The notes under the pieces: generated by a model | Seen by the model: only the letters and a program-made list of their open reading frames with translations | Told to the model about the DNA's origin: nothing | The model's database searches: none | Position numbers and translations under genes: made by a program | In this document: positions 4,976 to 56,304 of the stretch, piece by piece | How positions within the stretch are numbered: position 1 is the stretch's first letter | How the letters are laid out: each line of letters opens with the position of its first letter | NCBI GenBank assembly: GCA_032358255.1 | Contig: JAULBX010025153.1 | Coordinates: forward strand, 1 to 64,000 | DNA: 64,000 nt | Direction of reading: 5' to 3' | Source: Heterotrichella gracilis | Taxonomy: Eukaryota; Sar; Xanthophyceae; Tribonematales; Xanthonemataceae

Positions 4976-7900
4976 TCACAGTGCCGGCACCAGGTAGGCG
5001 CCTGGCGCGGTGCTGTCCTCCTCGTCTGAGTCTGAGTCCGAGTCCCGAGTTGCAAATCCGTATCCCAGGGACGAGCCGCTGCTGGCAGCAAGAACCTGGG
5101 ACAGGGGATGGAAGGGAGGTGAGCGGGTGGAATTGAGGGTGAGTGATATGGAACGTTGCAGCACCCTGGTTGACTCCACAATGCAAGGCCAGCCGGTCAT
5201 CCACCCAAACACATCCAATCGCACAACCCTACAATACTCCAAACCTTTCACACCCACGTATAAAAAACCCCCTGTTTTGATCCTTGTTTGTTCATACGCA
5301 GTGAGTCTAGTATCTTGACCCCATTTCCCCCTAGCCACCGCCCCTGCTCACCTGCAGCTCTGCTAGGTGGTTCTTCCTGTAGTTGCGGATCAGCTCAGCA
5401 GTCTCATTGGAGCTCATGCCCAGCTCGGTCATCACCGCCGCGGCAAGCTGCAGCGAGGGCTCAAGGGTCTCGGGCACCACCGCGGTTGCTCCAGCCTTCT
5501 CCAGGTTGATGCCGTGGTCCACGTCGTGTGCGCGCACAAACGTCTTCACGTTGGGGAAGTTCTTGTTCATGGCCCACACGGAGCGGTAGTTGGCGCCTGG
5601 AAGCGAGGAATTTGGGTGAGTGGGCAATTGGGTGGCATTTTGCACACTGCCAGCCGAGGTTGTGTCATGTTGGAATCATCATGCAGAATGTTGCAGCGAC
5701 AGCTGCAGCAATGAAATGTGGCGGAAATCCGTAGTCATCACCACCATGGCCACCAACATGCCATGCATGGGCCTGGGTTGAAGCATGGGCAGGGCCCATG
5801 CACAGGCCACCTAGGCATTTGCCATGTGGGCACGTCTATGCTTTGCCCCTGCCCACCTGGTGTGTCCAGCGTGATGACGGAGCATGCTGCGCGGTGGGCA
5901 CCCACTGCGTGCAGCACGGCAGGGGAGCCGGCGTCGCCAAAGTACACGGGGAGGTCAAGCTCCTTGCCAGCCTGCAGTACACAAAGTAGTTTAGAGAGGA
6001 AGTCTATCGAGGGTAAATGATGGTTCACACAATCAAGAACCCTTACAATCGCCATCAACCCCTCTCCGGCACTTGCACAGATGGCACAGCCCTGCACACC
6101 CCATCTGCACCCTTGCACCATCAACAACCACGACAGGGCAATATCTGGCTGCCTCATAGACATCAATCAGGCAGCCAGCACAGGCAATAACGCCCTCCAG
6201 CAAACCCCTCCTGCACCGACGCCGCATCCACACAATCGCTAGCACCATGCACCTTACCTGCACACGTGCGGCGTCCACGTCCAGCGCCACAAACGGCACC
6301 AGCCTCTCGCTGAGCAGCTGTGCAATAATCTGGCCCACACGCCCAAAGCCTGCGATGATGACGTGGTCGCGCAGGGACTCAACCTCCTCGCCTCGCGGGG
6401 CCATGGCCTGCAGGGTGAGCGAGAGCAGGGTGAGAGGGGGGAGAGAGGGAATGGATTGGAGCGTACACGCCAGCCGATGGGTGCCGTCACATCCACACAG
6501 AGGTTGGGTACATCATGAAGTCCCAAGTTAGATACAAGCAAGTACGTTGAGTGTAGTAGTAGACAGGGGGCATCAACATGGGAGTGGGCAATTGCATATG
6601 AGTGTGCGTAAACGTGCTGCATGTGCAACCATCCCAACCCCACCAGCTGCACGCGCAAGCATGCTCATGCCACCAGTCTTTCATGACCCGTCCACATCAT
6701 CCAACCCCCATCCCCCCGCTCCTTACCTTCATGTCATTCTTCTCAAACACCTTGCCCAGCCGGGCGCCCAACTCAGCCAGGGCAGGCGTGAGCGCCATGG
6801 TGAGCGCAACCACCAGGAAAAGCAGCTGGCTCATGGCGGGGTCCATGATCTTCTGGGCCACAGCCTCCCCAAATGTGACGAACGCAAACTCGCCCCCGGG
6901 TGCCAGCAGCAGGCCCGCGCGGATGGCTGTGAGGGTGGACAGGCCAAAGAAGGTGCCCACGCCCGCAACCACCAGTGTCTGCAGTGGGGAGGTGATGGGT
7001 GGTGTGGGGGCGTTGCATTTTCCGGAATGCGTCTGTGGTTCCAATCACTCCATCGCAACAACCTCTCTGGCTCTATCAGCATTTCAGATTCCTATCACAA
7101 TGGCCTCCCACCATGTGCAAAATCAGCCCCACAGAAGCAATACACATCAGAATGGTCTCGTATCCTGCACCCACCACCCTTCTAGCTGTTCTGGATCGCA
7201 GTGTGCCCCTCCCCCCTCGTTGCACGCACCTTCCCCGCCACCAGCATCGCAATTGCCGACAGGATGACCTTCCACTTTGCAAAGAACAGCCCCACGCTGA
7301 TCTCCATGCCCACAGTCATGAAGAACAGGCCCATGAACAGGCCCTTGTAGGGCGCGATGTCAGACTCAACCTGCATAGCAAACTCGGTCTCCGCCACCAG
7401 CAGGCCGGCCTGCAAGGGGGGAGGCGGGGGAGGCAGTAAGTAAGGACATAGGTGGCTATGCCCCTCGTTTGAGCAGCACGGGCGGTGGCTGGGAAACAGG
7501 GCGAGGAGCGCCTGTATGCTAATATTAAGCTATTACAATGACATGTCCTGCCATCAGGTTTGCATGACAGGTCAGTGCAGGGTGTGTGCAACAACTCCAG
7601 ACGCCTCATGACTCATGATGCATTCATTGGGCGGTCTGTGCTTGAATGCCAGATCTTTTCAAGAGCTGAAGGTGAGCGCTGGCTGCTTTCCTAGGCGGAA
7701 TCACACCCACCCCTTCTCCACTAGTGGCATTGCAACTCCAGCACAACCCCCCAGCCCTTCCCCATCACTCCCTGTTTACCAATTAGAGTTTAGGGTTTAG
7801 GGTATCCCTCCCCCCCCCCTCACCAGGAACGCGCCCAGCGCCAGCGACAGCCCCGCCAGCTGCGTGATGAGGCTGGTCCCCAGCACCACCAGCAGCGTGC

Positions 7901-10900
7901 AGGCGGCAAAGATCTCGGGGTTGCCCAGCTGTGCGATGCGGTTGTACACGGGGCGCAGCACCGTGCGGCCGCCCATGATGATTGTGCTGATGCAGATGAC
8001 GGCCTTCACGGCGGCCACGCCAATGGCCTTGCCAATCTTGGCCAGGCCAAGGGCTGCAGGGGTGGGGTGGGCAGGGTTCAGCGGGGTGCAGCTGGGGTCA
8101 GCGGCAGAGGAGCAGAGTGGGATGAGAAGCCGGTGAAGGGGTGGTAGGATGTGCAGTTGGTGGCATTTAGTGAGAGGGCAAGTACCCTGCCAGGGGCATC
8201 CGGCACAACCCTCAATGCACACAGCAGCTCCACGAGGATGGAGCAAGGCAACATCCTTAGCAATCATGCAACACATCACTGCAACACAATGGTGCACACC
8301 AAGCCAGCTTCCCAGTCCGCTCACAGCATGAGGCGCCCACAAACCCTCAACCCTAAACCCTAGCCAGCATGTGGCACCCACCTCCCGCCGCCCCCTCCTG
8401 CGGCGCCAGCAGCGGTATGAGCATGAGCAGCACCACCACCGCCAGGTCCTGGAACAGCAGCACGCTGAAGGTGGCGCGGCCGTGGCGGGAACCAGTCTCA
8501 CCGCGGTCCTGGAGGATCTGGGGGTGAGGGGAATGGGGTCAGATGGCGTGAGCAGGTAAGCGCATGTAGTGCGGGGGGTCAATGTCCTAGGGATTGTGGC
8601 CGTGGTGGTGGATGTGGATGCTCTGATCAATGTCCGGCTAAAGTAGATGCCAAAATGGACCTCCCACCCAAATGTGGGAAAACAATAAGGGGTTTATTGA
8701 TCCTATAGACGCCTTGCCACATGCTACCGCAAGCGCGCATAAGTGCGTGGTGTCAGGGCTTGCACTACTACGCACTGATTGATTTACAGCACCCCTGCAA
8801 CATGCAACTTTATACAAAACCATATTAAATACCGTTCGTTGTTATTGCCATTACATACTCCCTTGCCCCCACCTGCATCGCCACCGCCGTTGACGACAGC
8901 GCCAGCCCCCCGCCCAGTATGATCGAGGCGGGCCCCGATATGCCTGTCAGCGCTGAGGCCACCCATGCCACCGCCGCCAGCGTGGCCACCACCTGTGCTG
9001 TGCCCAGGCCAAACACCATCTTCTGCATGCTGCGCAGGCGCTCAAGGCTCAGCTCAAGGCCTGCAAGGGGTGGGAGGGAGTGTGAGGTGCAGATGGGGGG
9101 GTGTGGGGTGTGGGGTGAGGCAGGCAAGGGTTGGGTGAACGAGGGTAACAGTGAGGTGAGGAGGGGTTTTGGTGGCGGGGCGCGGTTGGGGTCCATGTGA
9201 TACTGTGCCATGGGCTGTGTGTGGCGGGGCGCGGTTGGGGTCCATGTGGTACTGTGCCATGGGCTGTGTGTGGTGGGGCCGGGAGCATGGGTGCATGTTC
9301 AGTGGCAATCACCAGCGCCAAACAGAGCCATGCACAAGCACGGCACATCCCATCACCCCTCCTCCCTCCCCCTTACCTATGTTGAACAGCAGGAACACCA
9401 CCCCCAGCTCCGCCAGGTGCCGCACCCGCTCCACATCCTGGATGATGCCCAGCGCATGGGGGCCGATGATAGCGCCGCCAGCCTGCAGGCCCGAGGTGGC
9501 ATTGGTGAGGTGCGAATAGCGTGGGTAGGGTCCAGGTGGCCCTGGCGTGCGGCGATGGATGACGCCATGGGTGAAGGCCATGGAGGCAGATGCGGGAGGA
9601 AGGCAGAATGGTGCTTGCATGCAGAATATTTGGAAAGCATGTGGTTGCGCCCAGGCAGTGCCAGCTACAGCTTGGTGTACCGCTTATACCCCAAAATGAC
9701 TTTGGGCAGTCAAATTGGGGCAGCGCGTGGCTGCCTCCAACACAGCGACATGGTAGTGCGCAAGGTTTTAATGGGCAGGGTGTCGCCACGTACCAAGAAC
9801 CCTAGGATGGGCGACCCTCCAGGCACCATGCACACCAGCGGCACTGCGATGACCGATGTCAGCAGCAGCCAGATCGTCTCCAGCAGCCCCTTCTCCCCCT
9901 CGTGCACATGGGGCCAGGGCAGGCGCTGCCACTGGGCGACCAGGATCGAGGGGAGGGCGGCGAGGGCCTGCGGGCGGAAGATGGGGATTAGTGGTGTGGT
10001 GGGGATGGTGTCATGGGCCTGAAGGGAACCGCTCCTCCTAGCACCAGGAGGTTGGCAGACCCGAGCGTGACATGCAGGAGAGGTTCCCTTCAGGCCCCTT
10101 GCCATTCACCAGATACCTCCTCCATCCCTCACCCAGCCACCCCTCTATTCAGGCACATCCCACTCACAAGACCACTCCTCTCACCACCCATCCCACCGCA
10201 TACCATCAAATTCCCCCCTTTGGCGCTCACCTGCCCCCACTGCACCATCTGCGCTGCCACCGCCTGCCCCCACTCCGTGAGGCTGATGCCGTACAGCGCC
10301 GCAGCCACCAGGCAGGCCACGCCCAGCACCAGGGGGGCCTTGGAGGCAGCGGCTGACGCCATGGCGCGCAGGCGCTTGGAGGCCGTGCCCTCCTCCTCCT
10401 CATACTCCCTCAGGTTGGTGGGGCCCTGGGGAGGGAATGGCCGCAGGTGAGGGGTATGCAACAGTGTGCACATGCCTGAGGGCGTGTGGTGGGGCCGTGC
10501 AAGGGCCTCATGCAACATTGCATGCAAGGATTGCGAAGGGATGTGGAGGCGCGCATGCGTTTGTCAAGGGCCCACGCTCTCACATTGACCCACCCACCAG
10601 GTAGAAGCCACCCAGCTCCAAAAAGCAAGGCTCTAAAGCACACCCTGGTTAGCCATTCAGTACAATTGCCACGCACATGTGCTGATGAAGCCGTACCCTG
10701 GCGTGAGACTGACATGGCGCTTAAAACGCAGCCCATTCTCCTCCCCACCCACCACCTTGCGCTTCTCCAAGGTGATGACCTACCTTGTCAAATTGCTCCT
10801 TCACCCAACAACGATCGATCCAAGCAAAGCTCACCCCACCCTCTACCAGCACCCACACCCATCGCTGCACGCGAGCACCACCCCAACCCCAACCCCACCT

Positions 10901-13240
10901 TGGGCTTTGTGGCAGTGGTGACCTCATCGAAGCGCTCCTTGAGCTGCGTGCCGTTGGTGAGTGCTGCCTCCAGCTCAGCAGCGGGGTCTGCCACCACGCC
11001 TGCGGCCTTGTCCACAGCTGCGGCGGCCTTGGCCTTCAGCTCAGCCTTCCTGCGGGAGGGGGTGGAGCGTGCACAGGTCAAGGGGTGGGGCAGAGTTGTG
11101 ACCTAGCATGGGAAGGTGAGATGGCAATACGCAGACATGCACCATTTGCTATACCATTGCTGGTCATGCGGCCCTCTGTTATCACATTGCAACCTGTCAT
11201 CACCCTATCCTCGCCTTCCCCTCGTCCACCACAACATGCAATGACCCCACCACCACCATCCCTGTGAGTGTTCCACAGGGGCAAAGGCAACATGGGCATT
11301 CCGCATGGGTGCAGCGGTTCAGTGCCTTATTGAAGTCGACATGGGCGAGTCTGGTCCCATGTCCCAACCCTGCACCCCTTCCCGGCCCCGTTAACGCCAA
11401 CATGAAGTCACCACCACCACCGCAGATGCACCTTTCAACCGCTCATCCCTCCCCCATGTCCGCCACCTCACATTCATGTCAAACGCCACCCCAAACCCCA
11501 ATCTTTCTCCCCATCAACATGCATTCCCCTCTCCCACCCCTCCTCTCCACCTCCCTTCCACCCCACCCCACCCCACTCACTCCTTGTCCGCCCGCTCAAA
11601 CTTCATGTCCATGTCCTTGTCGGTGGTGTCCAGGTACCGCAGCTCGCTCAGTGCCTTCTGGAACGCGCTCTGCGTCTCGCGCACCACCGCCTCAGCCTCC
11701 ATCTCGTCGCGCACAGCGCACTCGGCGGCCTCCATGGCGGCGGCGGCGATCTCCTCCGCGCGCAGCGCCGCCTGCTCAGAGGCCAGTGCGCGCTCCTGGA
11801 GGGCTTTGACCTGCAGGTTTTCGATCCAGAGTGTAAGTTTGGACGGTTTTAGGGTTTATATGTAGGGGGGAGGTTGTGCAGGGGGTTGAGGACAGCGAGG
11901 GTGGTGGATAGATCACGGCATTTGGGTGTGCAGCTTCGTCATGGCCTTATGTGGACTCGTGCGTTCTAGCCATGGGCCCCTGAACAGTCAAGTGGGTAGG
12001 TAGGCCGGCTGCGGTGCGATGGCATGGCGTGGTAAGATCAGTAGATGCAGTGTTGGCTCATGGTGGGTTGCTAAACAGTGCATCGGTCGAGTGGGCCGGC
12101 GACTGCCATGCGCATGCCATGGCCCAACGCAAGGTGGCCAGCACACGCCATGGCGGCTCGGCGCTGGGCTATTTAAACAGATCATTATGCAATTTTGAGT
12201 GAACCTGGGGAGCATGGCCAGCAACTCTGCCAAATCCCTGCTGGCATGTAATCTTGACTGCAATGCATTTCATGCAATAACTTGCATGCCAATGCCCCGG
12301 CCCTACCTTGTCCTCCAACGCATCCAACTCCCGGGTCAACCCCCTCAGCTTGAGCGACCGCTCCAGCAGCAGTCCATCCACCTCCTCCCCATCTATTTGC
12401 ATCTCCACTTCCTCCCCACCCTGCCGCCGTGCCTCCAGCTCGGCCTTGGCGGCATTCAGCTCCTCCACGCCAGCTGCCAGCTTGGCTTTGACCGCCACCG
12501 CAGCCTCCGCCTCCTCGCGGGCATCGGCAACTTTGGCGAGGGTCTTCTCATAGGTCTCACGTGCGTTGATCGCTAACTGAGCAACCTCCTGGGCCTGCAT
12601 GATACAGAGTGGGGCACTCAGGGAGAGGTGCAACGTGCCAGCAGCCTTGACAGTGTCAGGCGGGGTTGTGCTCTCGCAACAGCGGATAGTGCAATAGCTG
12701 CGGTCCCCACCTCTGCTTCTAGCGCCTCCCTGATGCTTGCCGCCTCTTCCTCCCTCAGCTTTGCCCTCAGGAGGCACTCTTTGAGTGGGTCGAGTTCAGG
12801 GATCTCAAGCTCAAGCTGCGGGGATGGCAAGCACCCTGTCAACTACACTGCTGGTACGTCTCATACAAGATTCAAGAGCGCAAAAAAAGGCTTTGTTCTA
12901 CCTCCTCCTCGTCGTTTGCCGACTCATCACTGGACTTGAGAGCCGCTGCATAGTTTGCATCGCTGGTGGAGTCCTTGCACCACAGCCTCCTGCGCAGCAA
13001 CAGGTAGTTAAAACGCTGCCTTCTATGCATAGAAACGTAAAAACAAAAACATTGCAATGGGAGGTAATACCGGTGAGTGTACCTGTTCAAGTCTCTGGAG
13101 TATCGCAGCGGTGCTCGTGTGTGGAGCAGGGGTGGTGTTGGCCGAACCAAGTGGATGGATCCCCGGCCACAGGTGAATGCATGGCACTGTATACCTCTCA
13201 AAGCCCTGGTGCCAGCGCTGCTTTGGATAGGTTGCAGCAT
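4976..13240 (-). CDS. KEA: chloroplast K+ efflux antiporter, KEA1/KEA2 type
   Basis: A CPA2 cation/proton antiporter expected in the inner plastid envelope, exchanging K+ for H+ and tuning stromal pH and osmosis. Eighteen frame-consistent exons give 1036 aa: 13240-13083, 12989-12902, 12815-12711, 12594-12307, 11810-11581, 11049-10899, 10425-10231, 9967-9794, 9482-9377, 9060-8873, 8517-8382, 8053-7824, 7409-7230, 6978-6727, 6407-6258, 5971-5857, 5596-5352, 5095-4976. Residues 1 to about 60 are basic and transit-peptide-like. Residues 85-340 are a long Ala/Glu/Lys coiled coil. Residues 385-815 hold about 12 hydrophobic segments with the CPA2 landmarks GPHALGII, FLLFNIGLELS and LLFQDLAVV (the Q-D pair). 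Residues 830-990 form a TrkA-N/RCK domain with the Rossmann motif GFGRVG. The C-terminus has an acidic DSDSDSDEED patch. The start is the first in-frame ATG before the transit-like segment. The long N-terminal coiled coil separates KEA1/2 from KEA3. Introns hold TTTAGGG-type repeats at 7787-7802 and 8343-8362. Confidence 0.94.
9172..9269. repeat. 49-bp tandem duplication in KEA intron
   Basis: Two adjacent, nearly identical 49-bp units (9172-9220 and 9221-9269), with a partial third, inside the intron between the exons at 9482-9377 and 9060-8873. They have no coding effect. Confidence 0.85.
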
Positions 13241-21517: not shown

Positions 21518-24500
21518 ATGTCAGGGCAGTCTGATGCGGAGGAGCAGCAGCAAGTGATCGGCCACGACTATTACCCCACCGTCATTCACAGGGCAGTGCA
21601 CCATGCCGGTAAGAGTAGATACCCCAAACCCTAGAGCGTTTCCACACCCCTGCGTTGCCGATACTAGCCAGCAACTCTTGACTATTAGGGTGCATGCAGT
21701 GCCCTCACCACACGAACGCCCCTCCCCCCCTCCCTCTGCTATGAACGGTGTATGGGCACCTTGCGCGCACCACGGCCACGCACGAGCTGGCGCAGCAGGC
21801 GGTGGCGTGCAACCATCACAACCCTTGTGCTGCCAACACACAAACCATAACCCTTCCTTCTGCAAGCCGCTCGCCTTAAAACCCAAAACTTTTTTTCCCC
21901 CTTAAATCCTGGATCCTTCCCTTCCTCCCACAGGCGACCGTGTGCACACCATGTCCCATCCACGAGCTGGCGCAGCAGGCGGTGGCGAGCACTTTGCAAA
22001 ACCCTTGCACTGTCATAGGCGTGAACCCTAAACCCTAAACGGTACCCACCGCCCCGCAGGCGACCTTGTGCGCACCATGTCCATGCATGAGCTGGCGCAG
22101 CAGGCGGTGGCACTCGCATCTCAAAACCCTTGCAGTGCTAAACACTAAACCCTAAAATATACCCTTTTCCCCGCAGGGGACCTTGTGCGCAGCATGTCCT
22201 CGCACGAGCTGGCACAGCAGGCGGTGGCGCGCACACAGCAGGCGGCCGAGAGGGTTCGCCCCTACATCCCCTCCTCCCTGCGCCTGCTGCTGCCCACATC
22301 GGTCAAGCTGGAGCACCTGGTGGTGGGGGCGATAGGGCTCATCATAGTGGTGGGCCTGGTGCTGCAGGTGCGCGCTAGGGTTTTGGTAGGGTGTTGAGGG
22401 GCTGGCGTCGCGGGTGTGCTCTAGGGTTCACTAGGGTGTGGTAGGGTCTTGCAGGGCTGCTGCCCCAGAGCGGTTGGGCTGGAGCACCTGGTGGTGGGGA
22501 CCCTGCGTGCTAGGGTTTTGGTAGGGTGCAGGAGGGTCTTGAGGGTGCTGGCGGCGGGGGGTGGACTAGGGTTTGTAGGTTGCGGAAAGGGTCTTGCAGT
22601 GCTGCCCTTGTGGGTGTGGGCCCTGGTGGTAGGGTTTGGGTGGGACGGGTGCTGCAGGGCACAAGGGGCTATGGCGGGGGTTTAGGGTCTAGGGTTTCAT
22701 TACAGGTCCTGGTCCCAGGCAGGCATGTTCTCTGGGATGTGGCAGTGGTACTTAATCCTATGTGCACCTGCGGCGCACCACCACTTTGGGACGGAGCACC
22801 ATACTGCCCCACCACACCCACCACCACACCCAACAGTAGCCTACCTGACCACACCACACGGGAACCGCCACACCATCTCCCCACACATACCCACCCACCC
22901 ACCCACCCACCCGCAGGCCGCCACCATCTCCGCCGCCAAAGCCATGGTGCACAACAACGCAGACACCATGGCCAAGCTCATCGACGCGCGCCACTCTGCG
23001 CTGGAGAGGTTCCAGAAGGCCGAGCTGGAGGTGGCGCTGGCAACAGGCAGCCCAATACCGCACCTGCAGGTAGGGTGTAGGGTCTCGTTGGGGTTTAGGG
23101 TTTTACTGTCCTCATCCATGTCCACCGAGGGCCTCTCCCTTGCAGGAGCTGCTGCAGGCGGTAGAGCACAGGTCAAACAGGGCGGCCATAGGCAATGCAC
23201 AGGCGGCGCACAACAGGCAAGGCGACCCCACCAGCGGGGTCAACCCCACAGACAACAGCGATGCCAGCGCCAGTCAGCCCGTGAAGGTTGCGGGGTCGAT
23301 GGTGGATGATGGCAGCACTGGCTTGACCGACAACACTGAGACCAAGTCCAGCCAGCCTGTGCAGGTATTCAATATAATAAAATGATGATTATATACATGT
23401 TATTATTGATGAATATAATGATAATATGATGATGGTACTCGTTGCTGTGTTGTGGTGGATGCTGCCCCTGTCCCATGATGCTGCCTGTGGGTGCGGCCGG
23501 GTATTCATGATCATTATGGTTTATTAACATCAATATGACAATGATGATAAAAATGTGACTAAATAGACAATGTATACCATATATGTGTGTTCGATCCTGT
23601 GTAGGTTGATGGCTCGTTGGTGGACGAGGGGGATTTGGGCGGCTACCCCAGGACCCGCCCCATCAGCGCCTTGGTGGACGATGGAGACGTGGTGCGACAG
23701 AACCAGGCAGACCCAAACGCGCAGCTGGCGGGGGATTTGAACGCCAACAACGGGACCGACGCTGGGCCCGCTGGGGATGGTGCATCCACGCCTGCCTCCC
23801 AGGGATCTCCTGTGTTTGTGGCTCGCTCAGCCGACCAGCCGGGGGAGCTCAAGGCGCCCGATGAGGTGCCCCTGGATTTCGACTGGCGCATGTACATAGT
23901 TCTCAACCCAGACATCGCCGACCAGGTGCGTGAATAAGGATGCATGCGTGTGGTATCCCTATCTGCAGCACGTATAGTCCCTAGGCAACACGGTGATGTG
24001 GGGGGGGTGCCAGCCTCCGCACTGGTTTGGAGGTGGTGTGAGGGTGTGTGTGTGTGTGGGCACCATGCATGCTGGCCAGATCAGCAAGCAGCTTTGCACA
24101 TGCGGCGCCAAGCATTCATATCACCCCGGCAGTTGGTTGTACCAGTTGGTCCTTGCGTGATCTGAGGGTCTGCTGGACGGCCGGGAAGCCCCTGAAACCC
24201 TAAACCCTAAACCCTAACCCTGTGCCCCACAGGTGACCACTGAGGAGCAGGCGGTGACGCACTGGAAGGAGGTGGGGTACAAGCAACACAGGTGGGTGGG
24301 GCTGGCGCCAGTGGTATATTAGTCAAAAGGACTCGTTTCAGTCAGATCATGGGTACCATCATAGTAGCTTTACCACTTTTCGTGATTACGGCGATGTTTC
24401 ACATTGCTCCCATGGACTACTAAAATTGAAGGTAATAAATATTTATGAGTTAATTCAAGAGCTTCTGTCAAAATTGCCAGTGCGGAGCATTAGATACCAG

Positions 24501-27500
24501 GAGTGTTTTCACTCTGTAATTGATTATTGCACGCCATCCTCCTGACTCTCCCCCTGGCCTTGTTCTCCAGGCACTACAACAAGTGGCTGTGGTCCTAACC
24601 CCTAAACACTAAACCACTATATAATTGCAGGCCATCCACCCGACTCTCCCCCTTACATGTGGTTTCCAGGCACTGCAACAAGCAGCTGGCTGTGGTCCTA
24701 ACACCTAATCCCCACACCCTAAACAGCGTGATGATTACATGCTATCCACCTGACCGCCCCCCTCCCCCGTGGTCCCCAGGCACTACAACAAGCAGGTGGC
24801 TGTGGTCCCCATTGACTTCAACTATGAGACCTACCTCAAACTCAACCCAGACCTGCTGGATGCGGGGTTCAACACCAAGCGGGCAGCGGAGAAGCACTAC
24901 AAGGAGCACGGGCAAAAAGAGGGGCGCAGGTGGGGATGAAATCCTGCTTATCAACCCTTGAAAGTGGTGCTAATTCATGTGGGAGTGGCCATCGCTAGGC
25001 CGAGGATGCTCAGTTGGGTCCACCTCATGTATGCTGCAAGCAGCCCGTGTTGGCATGCACCCCTGAAGGTGCAAGGACCTGGAACCCCAAAACAATTGGG
25101 ACATAAAACCCTAAACCCTGAACGCAAGTCGATGTACCATTTGGACACTCATTGAGGATTGCGTTGCATGGTTCCTTCCCTTCCAGGTATCTCCCCCTGG
25201 CGGAGCTGCCCCCCGACTTTGACTGGGAGGTCTACCTCAAGTTCAACCCCGACCTGCTCACCAACGACATCCAGACCAAGGATGTAGCAGAGTCCCATTT
25301 CCTGACGTACGGCCAGAAGGAGGGGCGCGTGTACCAGAAGTTCGACATGCACTTTAGGTACATGGCGTGCGGCGGGTTGAGCAACCAGATCTACAGCCAT
25401 GTGGCGGCGCTGGCGCTGTTCCAGGAGGTGGCGGACACCATCCCCTACAACAACATGACCGTAACGCTCCCCCCTGCCCTCAGCAGGAGCTCCTACAAGT
25501 GGGTGGATGCCTTGCTTTCCTTATGCCTTGGGAAGGATGCATGCGCCATATTTGCATGCGTGCTCTTGGTATGCTTGTTTCTTGTAGGTCCTTGGGAAGA
25601 TTGCATGCTTGCTCCATTTTTTTATGTAGAATCCATATCTGTATGTAGAACCTTGGTATGCTTGCTCCTTTTTTCCTTTCCCCTCAAATTTTGTACGCAT
25701 CCGGCATGGCTGTCCTGCCAAAACCCACACTTGTTTTCACAGTCCCTGGCCATGTACTGGGATACTTTCCGGCCCCACATACCTTTGTGTGTGCATGGCA
25801 CTGGCCCTGCCTGTTACCCCCCTTGCTAGGCCCTTAACGTTCTGGGGTGTCCAGAAAGTTGCATGATATTTTGGTATTCAGTTGTCAAAAAAGGCCGGTT
25901 TTGTTTACGTGAGTCCATCCCCGCGTGCCATCCCAGGGACGAGTACTACCCCGAGACTGAGCACAGCCGCGAGATGAGCAGCACCACGTGGGAGGGGCAC
26001 CACCTGGAGACGCTGTTTGACGTGGCATCGCTGGGGGTTGGGCTGGAGGACAAGGGGGTGATCATCAAGCATGTAAGTGGGGACGGGTCGGACGCAGGCT
26101 GGGGCGATAACATGGGCAGAAGCCTTAGGGTACATACCTGGAATGGGACCAAGGATAATTGCACATTGCCTTGCTGATCATCTCACAAAGCACCTTGCAG
26201 TTCACCAAGCGGTACACTAAAATGAAAAGTGGAGTATCTCCCTAGTCAACTCGATAAATAAACCAGCGCATTGGTGGCAGGTGGTCGGGGCAATGACATG
26301 GGTCTGTTCATTCGTGGCGCTGGATGCTGTCAGCTGTGTGCATTCCGCAGCAAGTCAAAAGCTAAATCGTCTGCCCTGGGTTGCATTGTGGGTGCATGAT
26401 TCAAGCACAAAATAAACCGGCACTTCTAATCGCCAGGCGCTGGCTCCCCCATTAGTTAAATCTCATATCACCTAGGCTGACTTCTCCTCCCACCTCCCCA
26501 GACCCCCGTCGATTCCCTCCCCGACCTTGCCTCCCCCGACATGGCCTACCCCGCCTGGGAGGACCCCACCCTGCCCATGGAGCGCCGCTTGGAGGTGACC
26601 GGGGTGTTCCGCAAGGGGTTGCGCATGGACACGCTGCTGGCGCTGGTGCGACACTCGCTCACGGTGTTTGTGCGCAAGCGCATGTCGTTTGGCGAGATCC
26701 CGGTGGCGCCGCAGGTGGTGCTGGAGCTGCCCTGCACCTTCTACGCGCTCAACGCAAGCAGGTGGGGGTGGTGGGGACGAGGGGGCAGGGGTTGGGGTGC
26801 TCGATGAAGGGTTCCGCACATGCACAGGGCTAGGTGGGCAGGGTGTGGGTGATTGGGGCAGGGATGTCACCGACGTGGTTCCGCTACTGCCAAGCATAGT
26901 CGCTGTTGTCTCTGGAGCTGATGTACGCATATGTGTAATGTTGAAAATTAAGTACAATCTGTTGGAAACGAGAAGTTATAGCTGGATCGTATGTGTGACA
27001 GGAATGCCTCAAAGGCATGAGGTGCCCCACCCCTCAAGCACTGGATCGGACCCACCGAGCCTTGCACCCTCCCTACCCTACCCTCCCGTTCCCTTCACAT
27101 CCTTCTCCCCCCCTTGCAGCGCACTTGATCGGGTCCAGGCCGTTGTCCGCGCCCTCAAGTACTCCCCTGCGCTGGTAGCCCTGGCCCACAAGGTGACCAC
27201 ACCCCTCGAGGCAAACGGGGGGTTCAACGGCATGCATCTGCGCGTGGAGGAGGGCATGCACCAGTGGATCGACAAGCTGGGGGGCCTGGAGGTGGGTCCC
27301 ATGCATACTATTGCAGTGTACATTTACCACTTACAATCTGTTAAACAAATGGGGTAAATACACATATTGTTTAGTACAATCATAGTCACAAAACATTTGC
27401 AATCGCAAGAAAGACTTCTCGAGCACCGGCTGACACCTAACTAATATCTGCCTGCATATTGTCCCATGCTGGCAAGGAGTTGATAGGTGGACGAAGCTGC

Positions 27501-29365
27501 AGCAAATTAGCAAGGAGGATCGCAGGCGCGATATTGCGCCCCGCATGCTGTCTAATGCCCCCTGCCTCCTCCCACCTGTGCAGTCCGTCCTTCAGTCGTA
27601 TGCCACAGCCGCACTCAATGCCGGATTCACGCGCGACACCCCCCTCTACATAGCATCCGCGCTGCTGTCGTACGGAGCAAAAGACAGTGCGTACACCCTA
27701 GTGTAGGGTTTTGCCTTGAGAACCCTGGTGTCCGGGGTTGGGAGCGGTGCCCATGAGTGGCCACATGGCAGGCGCTGTGCTCATGCTGTTTGCTTGGCAG
27801 CTTGTCAATAAGGAGAAACAAAACCGAATGGGACCAGTGGGCGGAGCTTAACCATGCACACCACAGCAAGTAAAGTCTAGGCACCCATTGGGCACCTAGC
27901 ATATGCACGTCGGACACTCCAATGTGCTTGGCTTGCTTGCATTCGATTACCCCCCTGCCAGCATTGCTCCCTGGTCCTAGGCGCTGATCAGTCCCTTGTG
28001 GTGTGTTTCCTCCCCAGAGCTTGATGAGGTGATCGCCACCTTGAAGAAGCTTGACCTTGCCAACAATGTGGTGTACAAGGAGGATGTGCTCACAGAGGAG
28101 GACCTCAAGGGTGGGTGCCAGCGCAATAAACCCTACACCAAAAACATAAACCCTAAACCCTAAACATCTTAACACAAGGAGGATGTGCTCAAGGGAGGCT
28201 GACCTCAAAGGTGGGTGGCAGCGTAATGAAACCGAAACCCTAAACCCTAAGCCCTAAACATGTTTGTCAGCAATATGGTGTACAAGGGTGGGTGCAGCGC
28301 GCACATGCATTTTCGGTATCAAAGATTGGTTTGCCATAGAGCCCATTTTATCTGCTGCGGCTTTTACCATTGCTCCGTTGTTTTGCCTGTATTTTGAATG
28401 TGGTGCCTTGCACCCGCTTGTATGCAAAGTGCACGGGGTACGTCTTTCAGGGCCCGATACACTGGATTCTCCTTCATCACTAACCTTTAACCCAACACCC
28501 TCTGACCCTCATGCCAACCTTCCTGCAGGCCTCAACAGCGAGCAGCTTGCAGAGGTTGACATGCTTGTACTGATGACCTCCCAGCGCTTTGTGGGCTTTG
28601 GCGCATCCTCCTTCTCCTCCTTCATCAAGGAGATGCGCACACTCAAGGGGGTGCCACCTCAGCGGTCGGTGCTGCTGGACGTACATGAGGTGAGGGGAAC
28701 CCTGATGGAAAACCCTATAGGCGAACCTTTAACAGGTGACCCTAGGGCCTCGATGGGGTGCTGCCTTGCAATCGGTGCTGTTGGACGTATGCGCATGAGG
28801 TCAGGGAAACTCTCAGAGAAAACCTAGTCCTTGATGGGGCGCGGGCGACTGGGGAGTGCAACCGCTGCGAAAATGCTGCGTGGGGGTTGGACAAGTCCTA
28901 TGCATCGGTGCACATTGTGATAACCGGCGAGAAAATATTTGCTGGGTCAAGAATCAATGTGCACATCTTGAATTGAACAGCCTACCACCTTGAAGCATGC
29001 TTACTTACAAAGAGATTTAAGGACTATCATCGTCATATTGCGTATGGTGCTATACCACTTTCACCAAACAGCCCTGCAACAAAATGCTGATTATGTACTT
29101 TTTTATACAAGCAGCCACCAGCTCATTAAAGGCCCGCCTGCCGAAGCATCTCACACTAGTGTTGTAACCCACATTTAGCTCAACTTCTGGAGTGTCATTC
29201 GCGCGCGTTCTAATAGTCCGCTGCTCAACCCCCTTCCAGGTTGAGGTGAAGAAGAAGGACTACATGCTGTTCCGCTGGGGGAGCATGCTCAACGCACCCC
29301 CCGCCACGCTGCGGCGCCGCTTGATACAGATGGCGCACTGGGCACTGCCTGCACTGTTCTTCTGA
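21518..29365 (+). CDS. O-fucosyltransferase-like Golgi protein with three NPDL repeats
   Basis: Fifteen frame-consistent exons give 848 aa: 21518-21608, 22177-22367, 22917-23069, 23146-23364, 23605-23925, 24233-24291, 24780-24929, 25187-25498, 25937-26072, 26502-26761, 27120-27291, 27584-27686, 28018-28110, 28529-28689, 29240-29365. A single hydrophobic segment at residues 72-94 (HLVVGAIGLIIVVGLVLQ) suggests a type II membrane protein. Residues 95-300 are a coiled-coil/linker region. Three repeats follow at about 311-345, 355-394 and 402-440, with the core D-F-x-W/Y-x-x-Y-(I/L)-x-x-NPD and an H-(W/Y/F)-x5-G-x-K-x-x(-R) end. Residues 450-848 carry plant O-fucosyltransferase-like landmarks: CGGLSNQ (compare GGLNQQR), FNGMHLRVEEGMH (compare LHLRFE.DM), DTPLYIASAL and a late DMLVLMTSQRFVGFGASSF. 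The family transfers fucose from GDP-fucose. Acceptor and activity are unknown, and a related glycosyltransferase cannot be excluded. Confidence 0.75.
21743..22230 (+). repeat. four tandem copies of the 5' edge of O-FucT exon 2
   Basis: The stretch encoding HELAQQAV of exon 2 (GAGCTGGCGCAGCAGGCGGT-like) occurs at about 21784, 21964, 22089 and 22206. Only the last copy continues into the full exon. The first three break off just after it and run into AAACCCTTGC-type sequence. CCCTAAA arrays lie at 22023-22040 and 22145-22156. The third copy also keeps an acceptor AG and the reading frame for about 16 codons. Confidence 0.85.
22308..22530 (+). repeat. duplicated 3' part of O-FucT exon 2 in intron 2
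   Basis: The CTGGAGCACCTGGTGGTGGG segment of exon 2 and the exon/intron junction with its TAGGGTTTTGGTAGGGTG tail recur at about 22455-22530. The copy has an internal deletion that removes most of the transmembrane codons. TAGGG-rich sequence surrounds it. Confidence 0.75.
24195..24221. repeat. interstitial CCCTAAA array
   Basis: Nearly four head-to-tail CCCTAAA units in the intron just before exon 6 of the O-FucT-like gene. This is the longest telomere-type array seen in the window. Confidence 0.9.
24510..24812 (+). repeat. three tandem copies of the 5' edge of O-FucT exon 7
   Basis: The acceptor and first ~30 bp of exon 7 (CAGGCACTACAACAAGCAG-like) occur at about 24570, 24669 and 24779, each preceded by the same pyrimidine-rich intron end. 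The first two copies break within GTGGTCC and run into CCTAA-type repeats (24598-24618 and 24700-24724). Only the third copy continues as coding sequence. Confidence 0.88.
28062..28295 (+). repeat. duplicated 3' edge of O-FucT exon 13 with CCCTAAA arrays
   Basis: The end of exon 13 and its donor (GAGGATGTGCTC...GACCTCAAGGGTGGGTG) recur, degenerate, at about 28176-28226. A shorter piece (AATATGGTGTACAAGGGTGGG) follows at 28272-28292. The copies are separated by CCCTAAA arrays at 28147-28165 and 28234-28259. Confidence 0.88.
28660..28830 (+). repeat. duplicated 3' edge of O-FucT exon 14
   Basis: The exon end CGGTGCTGCTGGACGTACAT with its donor recurs at about 28778 as a near copy carrying a small insertion, followed by a similar GGGAAACTCT/GGGGAACCCT stretch. 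Confidence 0.7.
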
Positions 29366-30279: not shown

Positions 30280-32372
30280 TCACATCCTCAGCCTTTGGCC
30301 AATGGTGGGCCCACTTGCGCCCCTAGCGCCTGCACTCTGCTTGTGGCCACTGGTTGAGGCCTGCGTGAGCTCCACCTCAGCAGAGCTCATCACCACATCC
30401 TCCATGGCCACCGCCTCCCCCCCCGCCACCTCCACCTCCTCCGCACCCCCAACCATGAAGGTGTGCGGCACCCACTGCCCTGAGGCGTCCAGGGTTTGCA
30501 CCGTGGGGCTCGCGGGGGGGCGTGTGGGGCGCTGGCTAGGTGCCCTAGTGTTGGCCGCCAGCGCCTCGTTAACCTGGGCTAGGGTTTCTGACAGGCGGAA
30601 CTGGAAGCGCTCATTGTTGTGGTTGGAGATGAAGGTCTTGTCCGCCTTGCCAGGCTGCTGGGACAGCCAGTATATGCACTCCATCATCTGGTGGCTGCCC
30701 TCCGCACGCTTGAGGTTGCCAAACAGGATCCTGGGCGTGGCCCGGACCAGCCAGTGGTCGGTGCGCATGTCAAACTGGTGGGCAAGCAGTGACAAACCCT
30801 CTAGGGTGGTGATCTCAAGCGGGAGGTCCACAGTAGGCACGATGGCATGGCTGGAAAGGGTCATGTCTAGGGTCTCCAGGCTGGGCAGCTGGCAGATCCA
30901 GGGCGGGCAGCTGTTGATGAGGTTCTGGCGCACGTTGAGCGTCTTGAGGCGCCGCAGCTGTGAGCAGGTGGCTGGGATGCCTTGCAGCTCGCACTTGGCG
31001 AGGGTCAAGGAGGTGAGGCAGGTGAGCAGGGACAGGTTGCTCAGCTGCGTGTCTCGCCTGCTCAACTCAACTCTGCGGAAGGTGAGCGCCCCGAGCTGCT
31101 TGAGCCCACTGAGCGCGGCAGGCAGCTCCCCCTCCAGCACCACCTTGCGGGTGCCATGCCCCTCCACAGACAACTGCTTTAGCCAGCCCAGCTGGCACAG
31201 CGCCTCGGGAAACTGCGGGAGGGCCGCGAAGGCGAGGCACAGGGTGCGCAGGGCAGTCAGTTTGGTGACCTGGCCGCTGATGGGCAGCACCACGCCGCGG
31301 AGGGTGCAGGTGACCAAGGTGGTTATGGAGCACAGGGCGTCGTCCAGCTTGAAGCAAGAGAGCTCCACTCCCCAGGCGGCAGCCGGGGCTTGGCAGACGT
31401 CCACGTCCAGGTGCTGGAGCGCGGTCAGGGCTGTCAGGTGCTTCAAGGCGCTCTGCAGGGCTGCAGGGTCCATGGTGTCGTTGAGCACCAGCTTGAGGGA
31501 GGTCAGCGTGGACAGCTGAGCCACTGAGGTGAGGAGTCCTGCGCGCCAAGGGGTGCCCAGCTTTAGTATGAGACACACAAGGCGAAGGCGTGCATCCCCA
31601 GGTTGCAATGGCACACCAAACGTTTCAAAATAAGACGTTTTGGGTTTTGTACGCCCCAACACCTCTTCCTCCTAACACAACTGCGGAGGTGTGCCCAAGT
31701 CAATTGTTGGTGGAAACTAGGCAGCAATAAGCACCGGGTACAGCAATCTTACCTGGGTCAGCTCGCAGGATTTCAAGCTTCTCAACTGGGCTCCGGCTGA
31801 GGGCATGGAACACAAAGGGCCAGGCAGCCTCCGCCTCCAAGGAAGGAAGCTTCACAGCTCGAATGTGCGCCACCCTGTTTGCCACCCACTCAGCCAGCTG
31901 CAGCAGCTTCTCGTCTGAAGGGGGTTGAGCACCAAACACTGCTGCGATGTCCAGGCAGCTCCACGTGGGCGACGCTCCTCGTGTCTCTGTGGCGCCACTC
32001 AGGGCAGCCTGCCACTTCTTGCACACCAGCGGCAGCTGTGTCACGCACTTTCCGAAGGAGACGTGGTCAAAGATGACCGGCAGCAGCCCAAACTCGGCCA
32101 AGTCGTTGATGTGGAGCTGGCGTTGGGGTGCCTCATTCGGATCCTGAACAGAGAAGAGAGAAGGTCAGCAGCGGTATGTGGTCAGCGGTTGCATTCACGC
32201 AGGCGTTTTGACCGTGCCAGACAAGGGAGCTGCATGTCTGTGAGACTCGGTCACAATGCATGCATAGTCCGTGTTGCGTTTGAAGGGCTCTTTCCTCCTG
32301 CAGGCTATTAATATCAATAGGACTGGAAAGAGGGTGCCAACGTACCTCGAGTGACAACTCAAACGTGTTCAT
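30280..32372 (-). CDS. F-box / leucine-rich repeat protein
   Basis: A putative substrate-recognition subunit of an SCF ubiquitin ligase. Three frame-consistent exons (32372-32346, 32143-31753, 31538-30280) give 558 aa. An F-box-like segment follows the N-terminus (residues about 22-55, LAEFGLLPVIFDHV ... LPLVCKKWQAAL). From about residue 140 to 420 runs a series of LRRs (LSTLTSLKLVLND, LTALTALQHLDVDV, LTALRTLCLAF, LTCLTSLTLAKCEL, LRRLKTLNVRQNLI, LPSLETLDMTL). The last about 100 residues are low-complexity Ala/Ser/Pro. Similar in plan to the gene at 56305, but divergent in sequence. The 27-bp first exon is small and could be replaced by another start. The substrate is unknown. Confidence 0.78.
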
Positions 32373-52740: not shown

Positions 52741-54923
52741 CTATACTCCATCACCACCTAATTGCACATCGGAATGCGGCCCTGCCTCCCCTTGAGGTCC
52801 CCCGTTCCCCTCGCCAACCGGGTCCCCTTGCACATCAATCTCCATACCCTCCCCTTCGGCTCCTGCCAGCCCCCCCTCCACTTGAAGATCCCCGTTCCCC
52901 TCGCCCGCCGCCTCCCCTTGCACACCCACCTCCACAGCCCCCCCTTCCTCTCCTGCCCCCGCGACCCCTGCGCCACTCCCCCCCCTGCGCCCCGCGCTCT
53001 CCGCCTTCATGCGCGCATGCTCCACAGGGTGCACCTGCTTCATGTGGTTGCGCTGCTGGTACACGTTGGCAAAGGTCTTCTCGCAGGATGCCACTGGGCA
53101 GCGCAGGCGCAGCTCCTCCAGGTGGCACAGCTTGTGCTTGTCAAGCTTCTCGGGGTCGGCAAACTTCTTGCCGCAGGAGGGGAAGTCGCACACGTACTGG
53201 CGGTCGGCGTGCACGTGCATGTGCTTGCGCAGGGAGGTGAGGATGGGGAACTCCTGCGGGGGGAGGAGGGGGAGGAGGGGGTGGATGCATGCGCACCATC
53301 ACAGTACTGATACTGCCCCCTTGCGCAGGCAGCGGGACAGGAATTGCGCATGTGACCCATGTGTTGGTTCTTCGCGCATGACTGTGCATGCAGCATGCAA
53401 TGCAGGCGACTGTACCAACGCAATACGCGGTGCGCATGCCACAGCCTGTAATACATGCATTTCTGTCCCACTACAGGCCTGTCCAGCCCTCCCCTGCACC
53501 CCCCCACATCACCACCCACCTTGCCGCATATGGTGCACACGTGGGTGCCCCCAACGCTGCTGGCGCCCTCCCACTCGGCCTTCCAGTTCCCGGCCCCAGC
53601 CCCCGCCCCACCCTTGGGGGGGCCCCCGCTACCCGCAATCTCAGCGCCCACCCCCTCTGCGGGACCGATCGCTACTAGCCGCTTGGACAGCTGCTGCGGC
53701 TGGTGGCTCACCCAGCGCCTGAGACGCACCTTGCCGCTGCCGCTGCCGATGATGGTGGGCACTTCCGACCTGGAGGTGCACATAAATGCATAGATACATG
53801 CAGTGCACAAAACAATGGACAAGTAGATCGGTAAACATGCACATGAAAAAATGAGTAAATGAGAGGTGCAAGGGGCCGGTGTTTGTGGACAGAAGTGGAG
53901 GGAGGAATGTGGAAGGCAAGATGTGGATGTGCAGGGGAAGTGGGTGCAGGCAAAAGTACCCCAGTGGGCTGGTGGAGGGTCGATTGTGCAGAGGCGCGGG
54001 TACCGGCAGATGCAACCATGACCTGGCGCGTCATGGGGTGCAAGGAATTGGGGTGTGATGGATGCAAGAGAACGAATTGGTGCGGTTGTGCTCCATGGCA
54101 CGATATCAACCCCATGGAGGGTGGGTTGTGGCATTTGATTCGTGCAGGTCCACAAATCAATGCCTGGGTGTGCCTTTGGAATGGCGAAACTGTCCATGTG
54201 CGGGAAAAACAATGTGGCTGGTTGCCGGCATCATAGGTCACGATCTGCATGCGGCCTGCTAGGGTTTTCTAGGGTACGCACCACTCCTGCACCCAGCACC
54301 GTGCCTTCTTGTGCCGCTCCTCATCCAGGCTGGTTTCGTTGCCGCCCTCCTCAACGGCAACCTGCAACATCACACTGCCTCACTCCGGGTGACAAGAAGA
54401 CTGTACATATGTATTTTCCTTTGCCACCCCTGCACCATGTGCATCCATAGAGCGCAGTGCTCCACAGACATGCAGAGTCCCGCTAGTGCAATCTTGTAGC
54501 AGGGCTACACGTCACACCGTGGCCTGACAAGCGAATAGCACACCTTCGCACCAACCCTAGGACTGGTGCCAACACAAGCACAAAGCTTACCCGGTCACAG
54601 CCACCCCCCCAGGCCCCATTCCCCGTCAGGTAAGTCACCTGCCCTGAACCTTGGTCTCCCTCCCTTTGCTGCTGCCCCTCATCCCCGCTGCTGCCAGTGT
54701 CAGATACCGGCGCAACACCCCCACTGGCGCCAGACAGCCGCGGCCAGGGGCGAGCGCCACGTGGCACCTCCTCATTTGCCCCATGGCTGGGCCCGGGGGT
54801 GGCCTGAGATGAGGCGCCAGGCTGGGTGCTGGTCTCCCCACCGAAGGGGAGGGAGGAGGCTGGGTGGGTGCTGGCGGTGTGCGGCTGTGGGGGGCCATCT
54901 GGAGGTTGCGGGTGCTGTAGCAT
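52741..54923 (-). CDS. C2H2 zinc-finger protein (three fingers)
   Basis: A likely nucleic-acid-binding protein. Four frame-consistent exons (54923-54639, 54361-54282, 53769-53520, 53253-52741) give 375 aa. Residues 1-95 are low-complexity and probably disordered. A middle block includes KKARCWVQEWSEVPTIIG (about 113-130) and a basic VRLRRWVSHQPQQLSKRL stretch. Finger 1 is built across the last intron (CTICGK joined to EFPILTSLRKHMHVH, about 200-220). Fingers 2 and 3 follow as C-x4-C types (CDFPSCGKKF ... HKLCH; CPVASCEKTF ... HMKQVH). The tail (about 290-375) is Gly/Glu-rich and contains an imperfect internal duplication (QGEAAGEGNGDLQ and QGDPVGEGNGGPQ). The C-x4-C spacing resembles TFIIIA-like fingers, but three fingers are too few to say. 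The start is the first ATG of exon 1; an upstream exon cannot be excluded. Confidence 0.78.
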
Positions 54924-56304
54924 TGTTAGTGAGGATGGCGGAGCGGGGTTTGGAGTGCGTGTGGTGAAAGGGCGCTGGTGTTGGTAATTGCTGGCTGGCT
55001 GTCAAGAAGAGGTGTGGGGGTTGGTGGTGAGTGGGCAAGCGCACACCCTGCTGCAGGCAAAGCATGCTGTGCTCAGATGTGTCTGCATCAGTAGCACTGG
55101 ATGCGAACGCGCCACACTGGAAGGTACTGGCAAAGCCAACACCTTTATTGCCTCACGTCTAATAGCTACCTTTCTCCCCCAGCATATACTCAAAATAACA
55201 GAACCTGCTTATGCATGCATATTGCTAAAAGTGAGCGCTTACCCTCTTCCGAACTACAGAGACGTCATGGCTTGTACCGATAGCATGCTGCAACCTTTAC
55301 GCCCGTTTCTACCGGTTGCTGGGGATATATATCTGCAGCGACAGGTGCTGAAGGTCCACAAGGTATGACTTGGACTTGGTACCAATGTTGGACGACAGTT
55401 GGGGGCTGGAATAGCTTGAGGTTCAGAGAAGTAAAGGAAAGTAAAAAAGAGACCAGTGAGCGCGCTAGTTGTGCTGTGTTACTATTGTGTCCCTAGCAAG
55501 GTGGGGTGACGCTGCTGAAGAGTTTGGAGGGGCGCCGCACGCTGCTGGTTCGGACAATCGGTGCCTGAATTGCAATATCAAGCTATCACTGATAGTATCA
55601 GCACAGTCTTGATGCCCTGTTTTGGCTGGCGTGTCAGTCTTATCCATAGCCGTGTTGGCAACATGCATGCATTGCCCGTTTATTTTTTTGAATACAGACC
55701 CCCTGAACGCATGCATGCATTCGTCCCACTGGGCGGAAGTTAACTGACACCTCGTCAGCAGTTCAACAGAACGGAAGTACCTAGGTGCACATTCACCCAG
55801 CTCTTGATGCGCTGACAGCACGTTGCCAGGGCTGCCTGCTTTGTGTATTGGGGAAGCTTAAGCTAGATTCCTACTTACTCTTGCTTCAAAGCTTGAGCGT
55901 AACCTACTAGTTATCTGAAGGCTTGGGCTTAGCTGCGCCTTGACTTTGCTCTGTCCCAAGTGGCAGCCTCTACGCACGTTTTGGCCATAAGGTAGGCGAC
56001 ATGCATGTTGAAAACCGAATGACTGTGGACTGTGCCCTAGAGGGGTGCAGAAGGCAATACGCCGAATGCGACCGGCAATGCCTTCAAAAGTCAAAAGACA
56101 ACTGCAACTGTATACCTACGTTGTCCTTATACTTTATAGCTTGCATACTTTCAACCTCTGGCGAGATGCCCCAAACCATGTACCCTGGCCATGTACCCTG
56201 GCTTGCCTGCCTCTCCAATGCTGCACGCATGGTCACTGACCAGCCCTCCCCTCTGCAGGCAGTCCCCCTCCCTCCCTCTCAGGCGAAGCACAGCTGTGGG
56301 CCCC
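54924..56304. promoter_or_regulatory. upstream region of the zinc-finger gene and the intronless F-box gene
   Basis: About 1.4 kb between divergent starts. It may contain a small two-exon gene (55267-55568, listed separately). TGCATGCAT palindromes occur near 55215 and 55662. Confidence 0.35.
55267..55568 (+). CDS. possible 55-residue two-exon protein
   Basis: ATG at 55267 opens a 32-codon exon (to 55362) ending in a good donor (AAG|GTATGA). An acceptor before 55497 (CCCTAG) leads to 23 more codons and TGA at 55568, all in frame. The protein would be MACTDSMLQPLRPFLP ... KVHKQGGVTLLKSLEGRR ... RTIGA: small, basic, without a clear membrane segment. I do not recognise it. Correct phasing and good splice sites support it, but a frame this short can arise by chance, and an upstream exon is possible because the frame stays open before the ATG. 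Confidence 0.3.

Follow-up and report, generated by a model that had tools for sequence, protein, structure and literature searches.

In Heterotrichella gracilis, arrays of the telomere repeat CCCTAAA lie between direct copies of neighbouring sequence, 79 to 100% identical, across the genome and more often than matched controls, and these copies frequently take in an exon edge. We consider it somewhat probable (roughly 0.58) that such loci are scars of staggered-break repair in which an end received telomere repeats before it was joined. Chromosome ends of this organism themselves carry CCCTAAA: it lies no more than 50 bases from where contigs C526, C609 and C717 start, and TTTAGGG reaches the end of contigs C460 and C607, the terminal orientation in each case. 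Across the 68.5-Mb genome (903 contigs), CCCTAAACCCTAAA was found 5,629 times (2,784 + 2,845, overlaps counted) and its reversed control 5 times (3 + 2); arrays of four or more units gave 30 matches genome-wide with one pattern. The sequence read comprised 200 kb of contig C2, the window (the whole 64-kb stretch of DNA analysed), stretches L001-L008 and 40 short stretches around arrays.

An O-FucT-like gene in the window (21518..29365, + strand) illustrates the anatomy. Its 15 exons (21518-21608, 22177-22367, 22917-23069, 23146-23364, 23605-23925, 24233-24291, 24780-24929, 25187-25498, 25937-26072, 26502-26761, 27120-27291, 27584-27686, 28018-28110, 28529-28689 and 29240-29365) are separated by GT-AG introns throughout and join into a single intact frame of 848 aa, with a C-terminal O-FucT domain (Pfam PF10250, E 2.6e-13) and a best protein match in Parachlorella kessleri (33%). 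A paralog at G000:C266:174923-175693 (minus strand, 32% identity) keeps a single uninterrupted reading frame across the part that corresponds to exons 8 to 11, and the paralogs thus differ strongly in intron content; no recent O-FucT paralog was close enough to be used as an empty site.

Self-BLAST and a repeat search confirmed the sequence-only reading that exon edges of this gene are copied into its introns at five places and that CCCTAAA arrays, six of which were located, separate the copies at three of them, exons 2, 7 and 13. Exon 7 is the clearest case in the window, with three copies, two arrays and no array directly outside: two intronic copies of the acceptor edge (24523-24593 and 24621-24696; true edge 24780), 76-79% identical, are each followed directly by an array (24594-24619 and 24697-24724). 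That copies run straight into arrays, as first described, holds here but not before exon 2, where three intronic copies of the acceptor edge (21754-21811, 21919-21992 and 22052-22111, within 21754..22176; true edge 22177) are interspersed with arrays at 22024-22040 and 22138-22156 that do not fill the spacers, ~26-31 nt of other sequence preceding each array and 11-22 nt following it. Translation entered at the copied exon 2 acceptors at 21934 and ~22060 ends within the arrays, at codons 33 and 30; the first copied exon 7 acceptor (24571) also leads to a stop in an array, and the second (24670) is open across all 140 bases translated. We read the readable exon 2 copies and the exon 7 copies as dead copies, not alternative exons.

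At the start of intron 13 (28111..28300), the donor is followed by an array (28127-28165), a copy of the exon 13 end and donor region (28174-28226, 85% identical to 28075-28126), a second array (28229-28259) and a third, partial copy (28264-28287). The remaining two places had no clean array between copies. After exon 2 (22369..22605, a TAGGGT-rich region), 22286-22328 recurs at 22456-22499 (86%, a copy of the exon interior) and 22369-22460 recurs at 22504-22605 (76%, repeating the beginning of intron 2); the exon 14 end and donor region (28642-28714) is copied at 28749..28824 (75%) across a 34-nt spacer. All of these features read on the + strand. Two further + strand arrays that had been pointed out in the gene both exist, and neither marks a duplication event: no flanking copies were found at 24190..24221, 11 nt upstream of exon 6, and the repeat match 24814/25215 around the intron 7 array (25106..25123) is a protein motif shared by exons 7 and 8. 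The other genes of the window had been credited with single motifs and no copies; ~three-unit arrays at 7783-7803 and 8341-8362, in another gene and ~20 nt from predicted donors, correct the first half of that statement, and no flanking copies were found beside them. Elsewhere, the window contains a tandem 90-bp unit (52779-52957, 80% identity) and long frames that we take, by their look, to be leucine-rich-repeat-like (30337-31563, minus; 56236-57618, plus), as we do others near one C2 end (C2:626-2221, minus; 7983-8903 and 11024-11860, plus).

The association of arrays with copies extends beyond this gene. Over C2 and the window together (264 kb), 15 of 62 strong arrays lay between two copies of a local direct repeat, a count that includes the exon 7/8 protein repeat (row 24814/25215), which is not a real event; 14 of 269 other simple repeats did so (Fisher p 2.5e-5), as did 7% of shifted positions. 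In 9 of these 15 cases the array made up 75% or more of the spacer, as the other simple repeat did in 3 of the 14. On C2, arrays between copies numbered 16/121 at score >=18 (p 1.6e-4), 12/56 at >=24 (p 5.8e-5; shifted positions 5.7%), 9/48 at >=28 and 7/25 at >=34 (p 4.7e-4), with 4.6-5.9% for positions shifted by 150-1500 bp. Local repeats (at least 25 bp, E 1e-4, starts within 600 bp), called with arrays masked, were exclusively direct over the 264 kb (83 direct, 59 on C2 and 24 in the window; 0 inverted), and 37 further stretches at laxer cut-offs gave 35 direct repeats and 1 inverted (L050).

Two replicates, each with slightly laxer cut-offs and its own control, gave similar fractions. 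Among twenty arrays taken in listing order from C3, C4 and the start of C5, 5/20 were spanned (L050, L051, L059, L061 and L067; control 7.3%), and both gaps were <=20 nt in only 2/20 (L051 and L061). The second replicate took twenty stretches, each around an array of at least four units; with three that lay at contig ends or close to them set aside, 5 of the 17 internal arrays were spanned (L029, L031, L036, L039 and L042; control 9.4%), only 3/17 with both gaps <=20 nt. The excess of nearby copies that the sequence-only reading expected is thus present, and a chance or uniform background was rejected on comparison with randomly placed positions, locally shifted ones and simple repeats of other kinds. 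Our confidence in the staggered-break reading is slightly lowered because tight cases are fewer than spanned ones, and the roughly three quarters of arrays without flanking copies also count against it.

That the pattern stems from assembly artefact or chance is highly improbable. The assembly is in 903 contigs, the repeats are short and one pair (L061) is 100% identical, but the gene's frame is intact, the pattern is found again, against matched controls, on independent contigs, and most listed copies have diverged, which makes an artefact unlikely: in 19 cases picked by hand as tighter, copies were 26-99 bp long and 78.9-100% identical (median 89.9%). Left out of these 19 were C2:20198, 21271, 59132, 60924/60930, 136917 and 140877, together with L029, L042, L059, L067, the side arrays of L030/L054/L058, the exon 2 rows and the protein repeat.

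Individual loci reveal how closely copies and arrays can abut. The youngest-looking case, L061 on C4, is a 56-bp duplication, identical at 56/56 positions, around a 39-bp array from which a single base separates each copy; the exon, kinase-like and with GLDYCHTL as its last residues, is followed by gtgaggcatg, one base, the array, one base, the 56 bases again and further intron, and with the splice site read by eye the duplicated stretch ends 10 nt into the intron. Gene conversion could be the source of its 100% identity. The L061 array is heterogeneous, and a 22-mer from it had no other occurrence in the assembly at <=1 mismatch; capture from another assembled locus was rejected, no second copy having been found. 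Such an array is expected neither if telomerase had made it cleanly nor if it had been copied from a locus in the assembly. L039 (C225) consists of 45 bp, a 31-bp perfect array and the same 45 bp, with no extra base. At C2:181173-181350, 69 bp at 97% identity surround an array plus CTGCAG at what is, by eye, the acceptor of a minus-strand gene; the CTGCAG lies between the array and the downstream copy and is absent before the upstream copy, so a new 3' splice site may have come with the filler.

Many dispersed insertions beside splice sites could also suggest a mobile or introner-like element that carries telomere repeats, the copies being its target-site duplications. Target-site duplications are typically shorter than 26-99 bp, and this copy length counts against such an element, as do searches with 13 units against ~303 kb, which matched only their own loci except for one 22-bp match of L031 in the window. 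The exon 7 unit has one match in the genome, although this search missed the unit's own 76-79% copies and so excludes only close copies. We give an element of this kind very little credence.

Duplications favour exon edges. Predicted edges came from a small, crude codon-based segmenter that recovered 13/15 known exons and put C2:181173 on the wrong strand, so the fractions are approximate: 13 of 18 array-bearing repeat rows touch exactly one predicted edge, compared with 15% on random non-coding placement (p 1e-7), the 18 including two rows that share one copy (21271/21281) and the exon 7/8 protein repeat. Rows without a telomeric spacer, the majority of local repeats (44/62), are edge-prone as well (24/44 versus 17%), and the preference therefore belongs to the duplications and not to arrays alone. 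It is partly a detection bias, because one of the two copies, the exonic one, is conserved under selection; the most similar pairs also lie at edges (L061, 100%; C2:181173, 97%; L039, 96%; C2:135603, 94%). At C2:29832-29977, C2:169307-169598, C2:181513-181646 and window 28642-28824, exon edges are duplicated around filler that is not telomeric, such as an AT-rich spacer of 54 nt, and by eye these duplications end ~5-25 nt past the donor.

Arrays themselves cluster at 5' splice sites. Among 61 arrays of score >=28 outside predicted coding sequence, 17 lay within 30 bp of a predicted donor edge (2.6 expected) and 4 near predicted acceptors (3.2 expected); with a lower cut-off (146 arrays, within 60 bp) the numbers were 34 versus 10.3 for donors and 24 versus 10.2 for acceptors. 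Counted genome-wide and independently of the segmenter, AGGTGNG followed by an array word at 0-15 nt occurred 575 times with the C strand and 865 times with the G strand, a few arrays being counted twice, compared with 126 and 191 in reversed order and 216 (C strand only) with the array at 40-55 nt. The excess is ~4.5-fold and alike in both orientations (odds ratio 1.01), and telomerase priming at G-rich donors is accordingly not favoured as the cause of the hotspot. Around predicted splice sites of C2 and the window, arrays within 60 bp of acceptors had the C strand in sense in 20/24 cases (score >=18, p 0.0015), and those within 60 bp of donors lay on both strands (14 C, 20 G). Genome-wide acceptor pattern counts (977+931 and 1347+1222), which had no reversed-order control, were set aside because CTGCAGG is self-complementary with donors and TTCAGG is a telomere variant.

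The clustering near donors and the strand bias near acceptors would suit arrays kept as splicing or transcription aids, G-rich after donors and C-rich, CTAAAC-like, before acceptors. We consider such a function very unlikely: both orientations are equally enriched near donors, the acceptor bias fits equally well with avoidance of the AG in each G-strand unit, and the flanking copies are left unexplained.

The staggered-break reading starts from those copies. The left flank with the first copy, and the second copy with the right flank, each read as continuous old sequence, indicating that both break ends kept the same stretch, as a staggered break gives after fill-in of both ends. Beyond this point we infer the break itself, the involvement of telomerase, the fill-in and the joining. 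Two breaks on opposite strands, tens of bases apart, would leave both ends with the stretch between them; telomere repeats would be added to an end or overhang, and the ends would then be filled in and sealed by end joining, giving stretch, telomere filler and stretch in direct orientation. If a splice site falls within the stretch, splicing would keep using the exon-side edge and the rest would turn intronic, lengthening the intron by the array and one copy. The copy-plus-array unit would sometimes be duplicated again later, a step needed for C2:135603 and the exon 2 series. A junction rule in which the primed side is exact and the other ragged was not seen on by-eye comparison, and a staggered-break model does not predict that arrays cluster within ~15 nt of donors. 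The predominance of local repeats that lack a telomeric spacer and yet prefer exon edges also weighs against it.

The order of events could also be reversed, with older arrays, whether telomere insertions or motifs resembling telo boxes, acting as fragile or slippery spots at which a tandem duplication ending in or beside the array copied edge and array together. At C2:135603 a 30-nt degenerate array with identical variants lies before each copy, on the outer side of both, so that array was inside the duplicated unit. C2:122196, C2:140939, L031 and L039 likewise have arrays immediately beyond the copies, and at all five loci the array may predate the duplication. Tandem units that include the array are found elsewhere: among the donor-plus-array matches listed first, once shifted double matches were removed, 20/97 and 11/96 had a same-strand neighbour within 250 bp and none had one on the opposite strand (chance expectation <0.3), and these neighbouring matches are tandem units of donor and array. 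At exon 7, C2:181173, C2:189606 and L061, by contrast, the array lies at the joint and none lies directly outside, that is, n copies with n-1 arrays, and an arrays-first history would require loss of the older array from the outer side. We judge that history unlikely on balance, though well within consideration. Repair with telomere repeats and a second copy, as the sequence-only reading proposed, best fits the copy-array-copy anatomy; its implication that each array is an independent event is not supported, because arrays inside the duplicated unit at several loci make part of the pattern re-duplication.

The components of the staggered-break reading have precedents. In primates, rodents and horse, short interstitial telomeric sequences have been inserted where double strands broke (PMC2246262 and PMC7215372), with duplication, judged against empty sites, at 4.6% of insertions in rodents, 16% in primates and 4.5% in horse; PMC7215372 ascribes the direct target duplications in horse to staggered breaks and reports break-site bases in register with the inserted repeat. 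That nothing of this kind had been described is therefore not supported. As in those mammals, the internal repeat in H. gracilis is the terminal repeat, and part of the loci have a direct duplication or filler at the junction; unlike in mammals, roughly one array in four lies between copies, on a less strict test that uses no empty sites, and arrays are much denser and sit at exon edges. In the available part of PMC8355091, small tandem duplications arise at breaks whose ends carry 3' overhangs, and they are made by way of Ku80, CST and Pol alpha-primase, the complex that fills in telomeres. The duplications here resemble these in being direct and tens of bp long, and the proposed opposite-strand nicks and telomere-end complex would be shared, whereas telomere repeats at the joints are not reported in that part of the paper. 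Our model would thus combine two published processes, CST/Pol alpha duplication and telomere insertion at breaks, into one. Plant telo boxes, over-represented in 5' UTRs and in the first and second introns, are likewise short telomere motifs in genes, and flanking copies are not mentioned in the accessible text (PMC3022908). Among the titles and abstract openings listed, a set that most subscription journals fall outside, we found no description of telomere-filled exon-edge duplications; the ingredients are known, and the scale and the focus on exon edges are new to us.

Under the tandem-duplication model of intron gain, copies form both ends of a new intron and coding resumes after the second copy. 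By eye, no such arrangement was found at the window sites, L061, L039 or C2:189606, so the proposal that the process makes introns fails for the cases read, and what survives is that one-sided duplication lengthens an existing intron. Direct repeats close to intron/exon borders (mean 11.4 bp) are ascribed to break repair in the accessible part of PMC11782384; ours are also direct, near splice sites and open to a break-repair reading, but in the cases read they lie on one side of an existing intron, are 26-99 bp long and enclose telomeric filler.

Tentatively, and as something we hold to be possible without expecting it, the chromosome-end machinery (telomerase and fill-in) would be a routine route of break repair in this lineage. 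It would act mainly at exon edges, most of all close to 5' splice sites on their intron side, and repeated edge duplication interrupted by telomere repeats would enlarge introns, occasionally supply a splice site and serve generally to make intron sequence. If the staggered-break reading is true, one small genome holds many repair scars, each tagged by a telomere repeat and timed by the divergence of its copies. Counts and tests could then address how telomere machinery is linked to ordinary break repair and where intron sequence comes from. In that case, the concentration of arrays at 5' splice sites would point to breakage linked to splicing or transcription, or to strong selection on the sites where scars survive.
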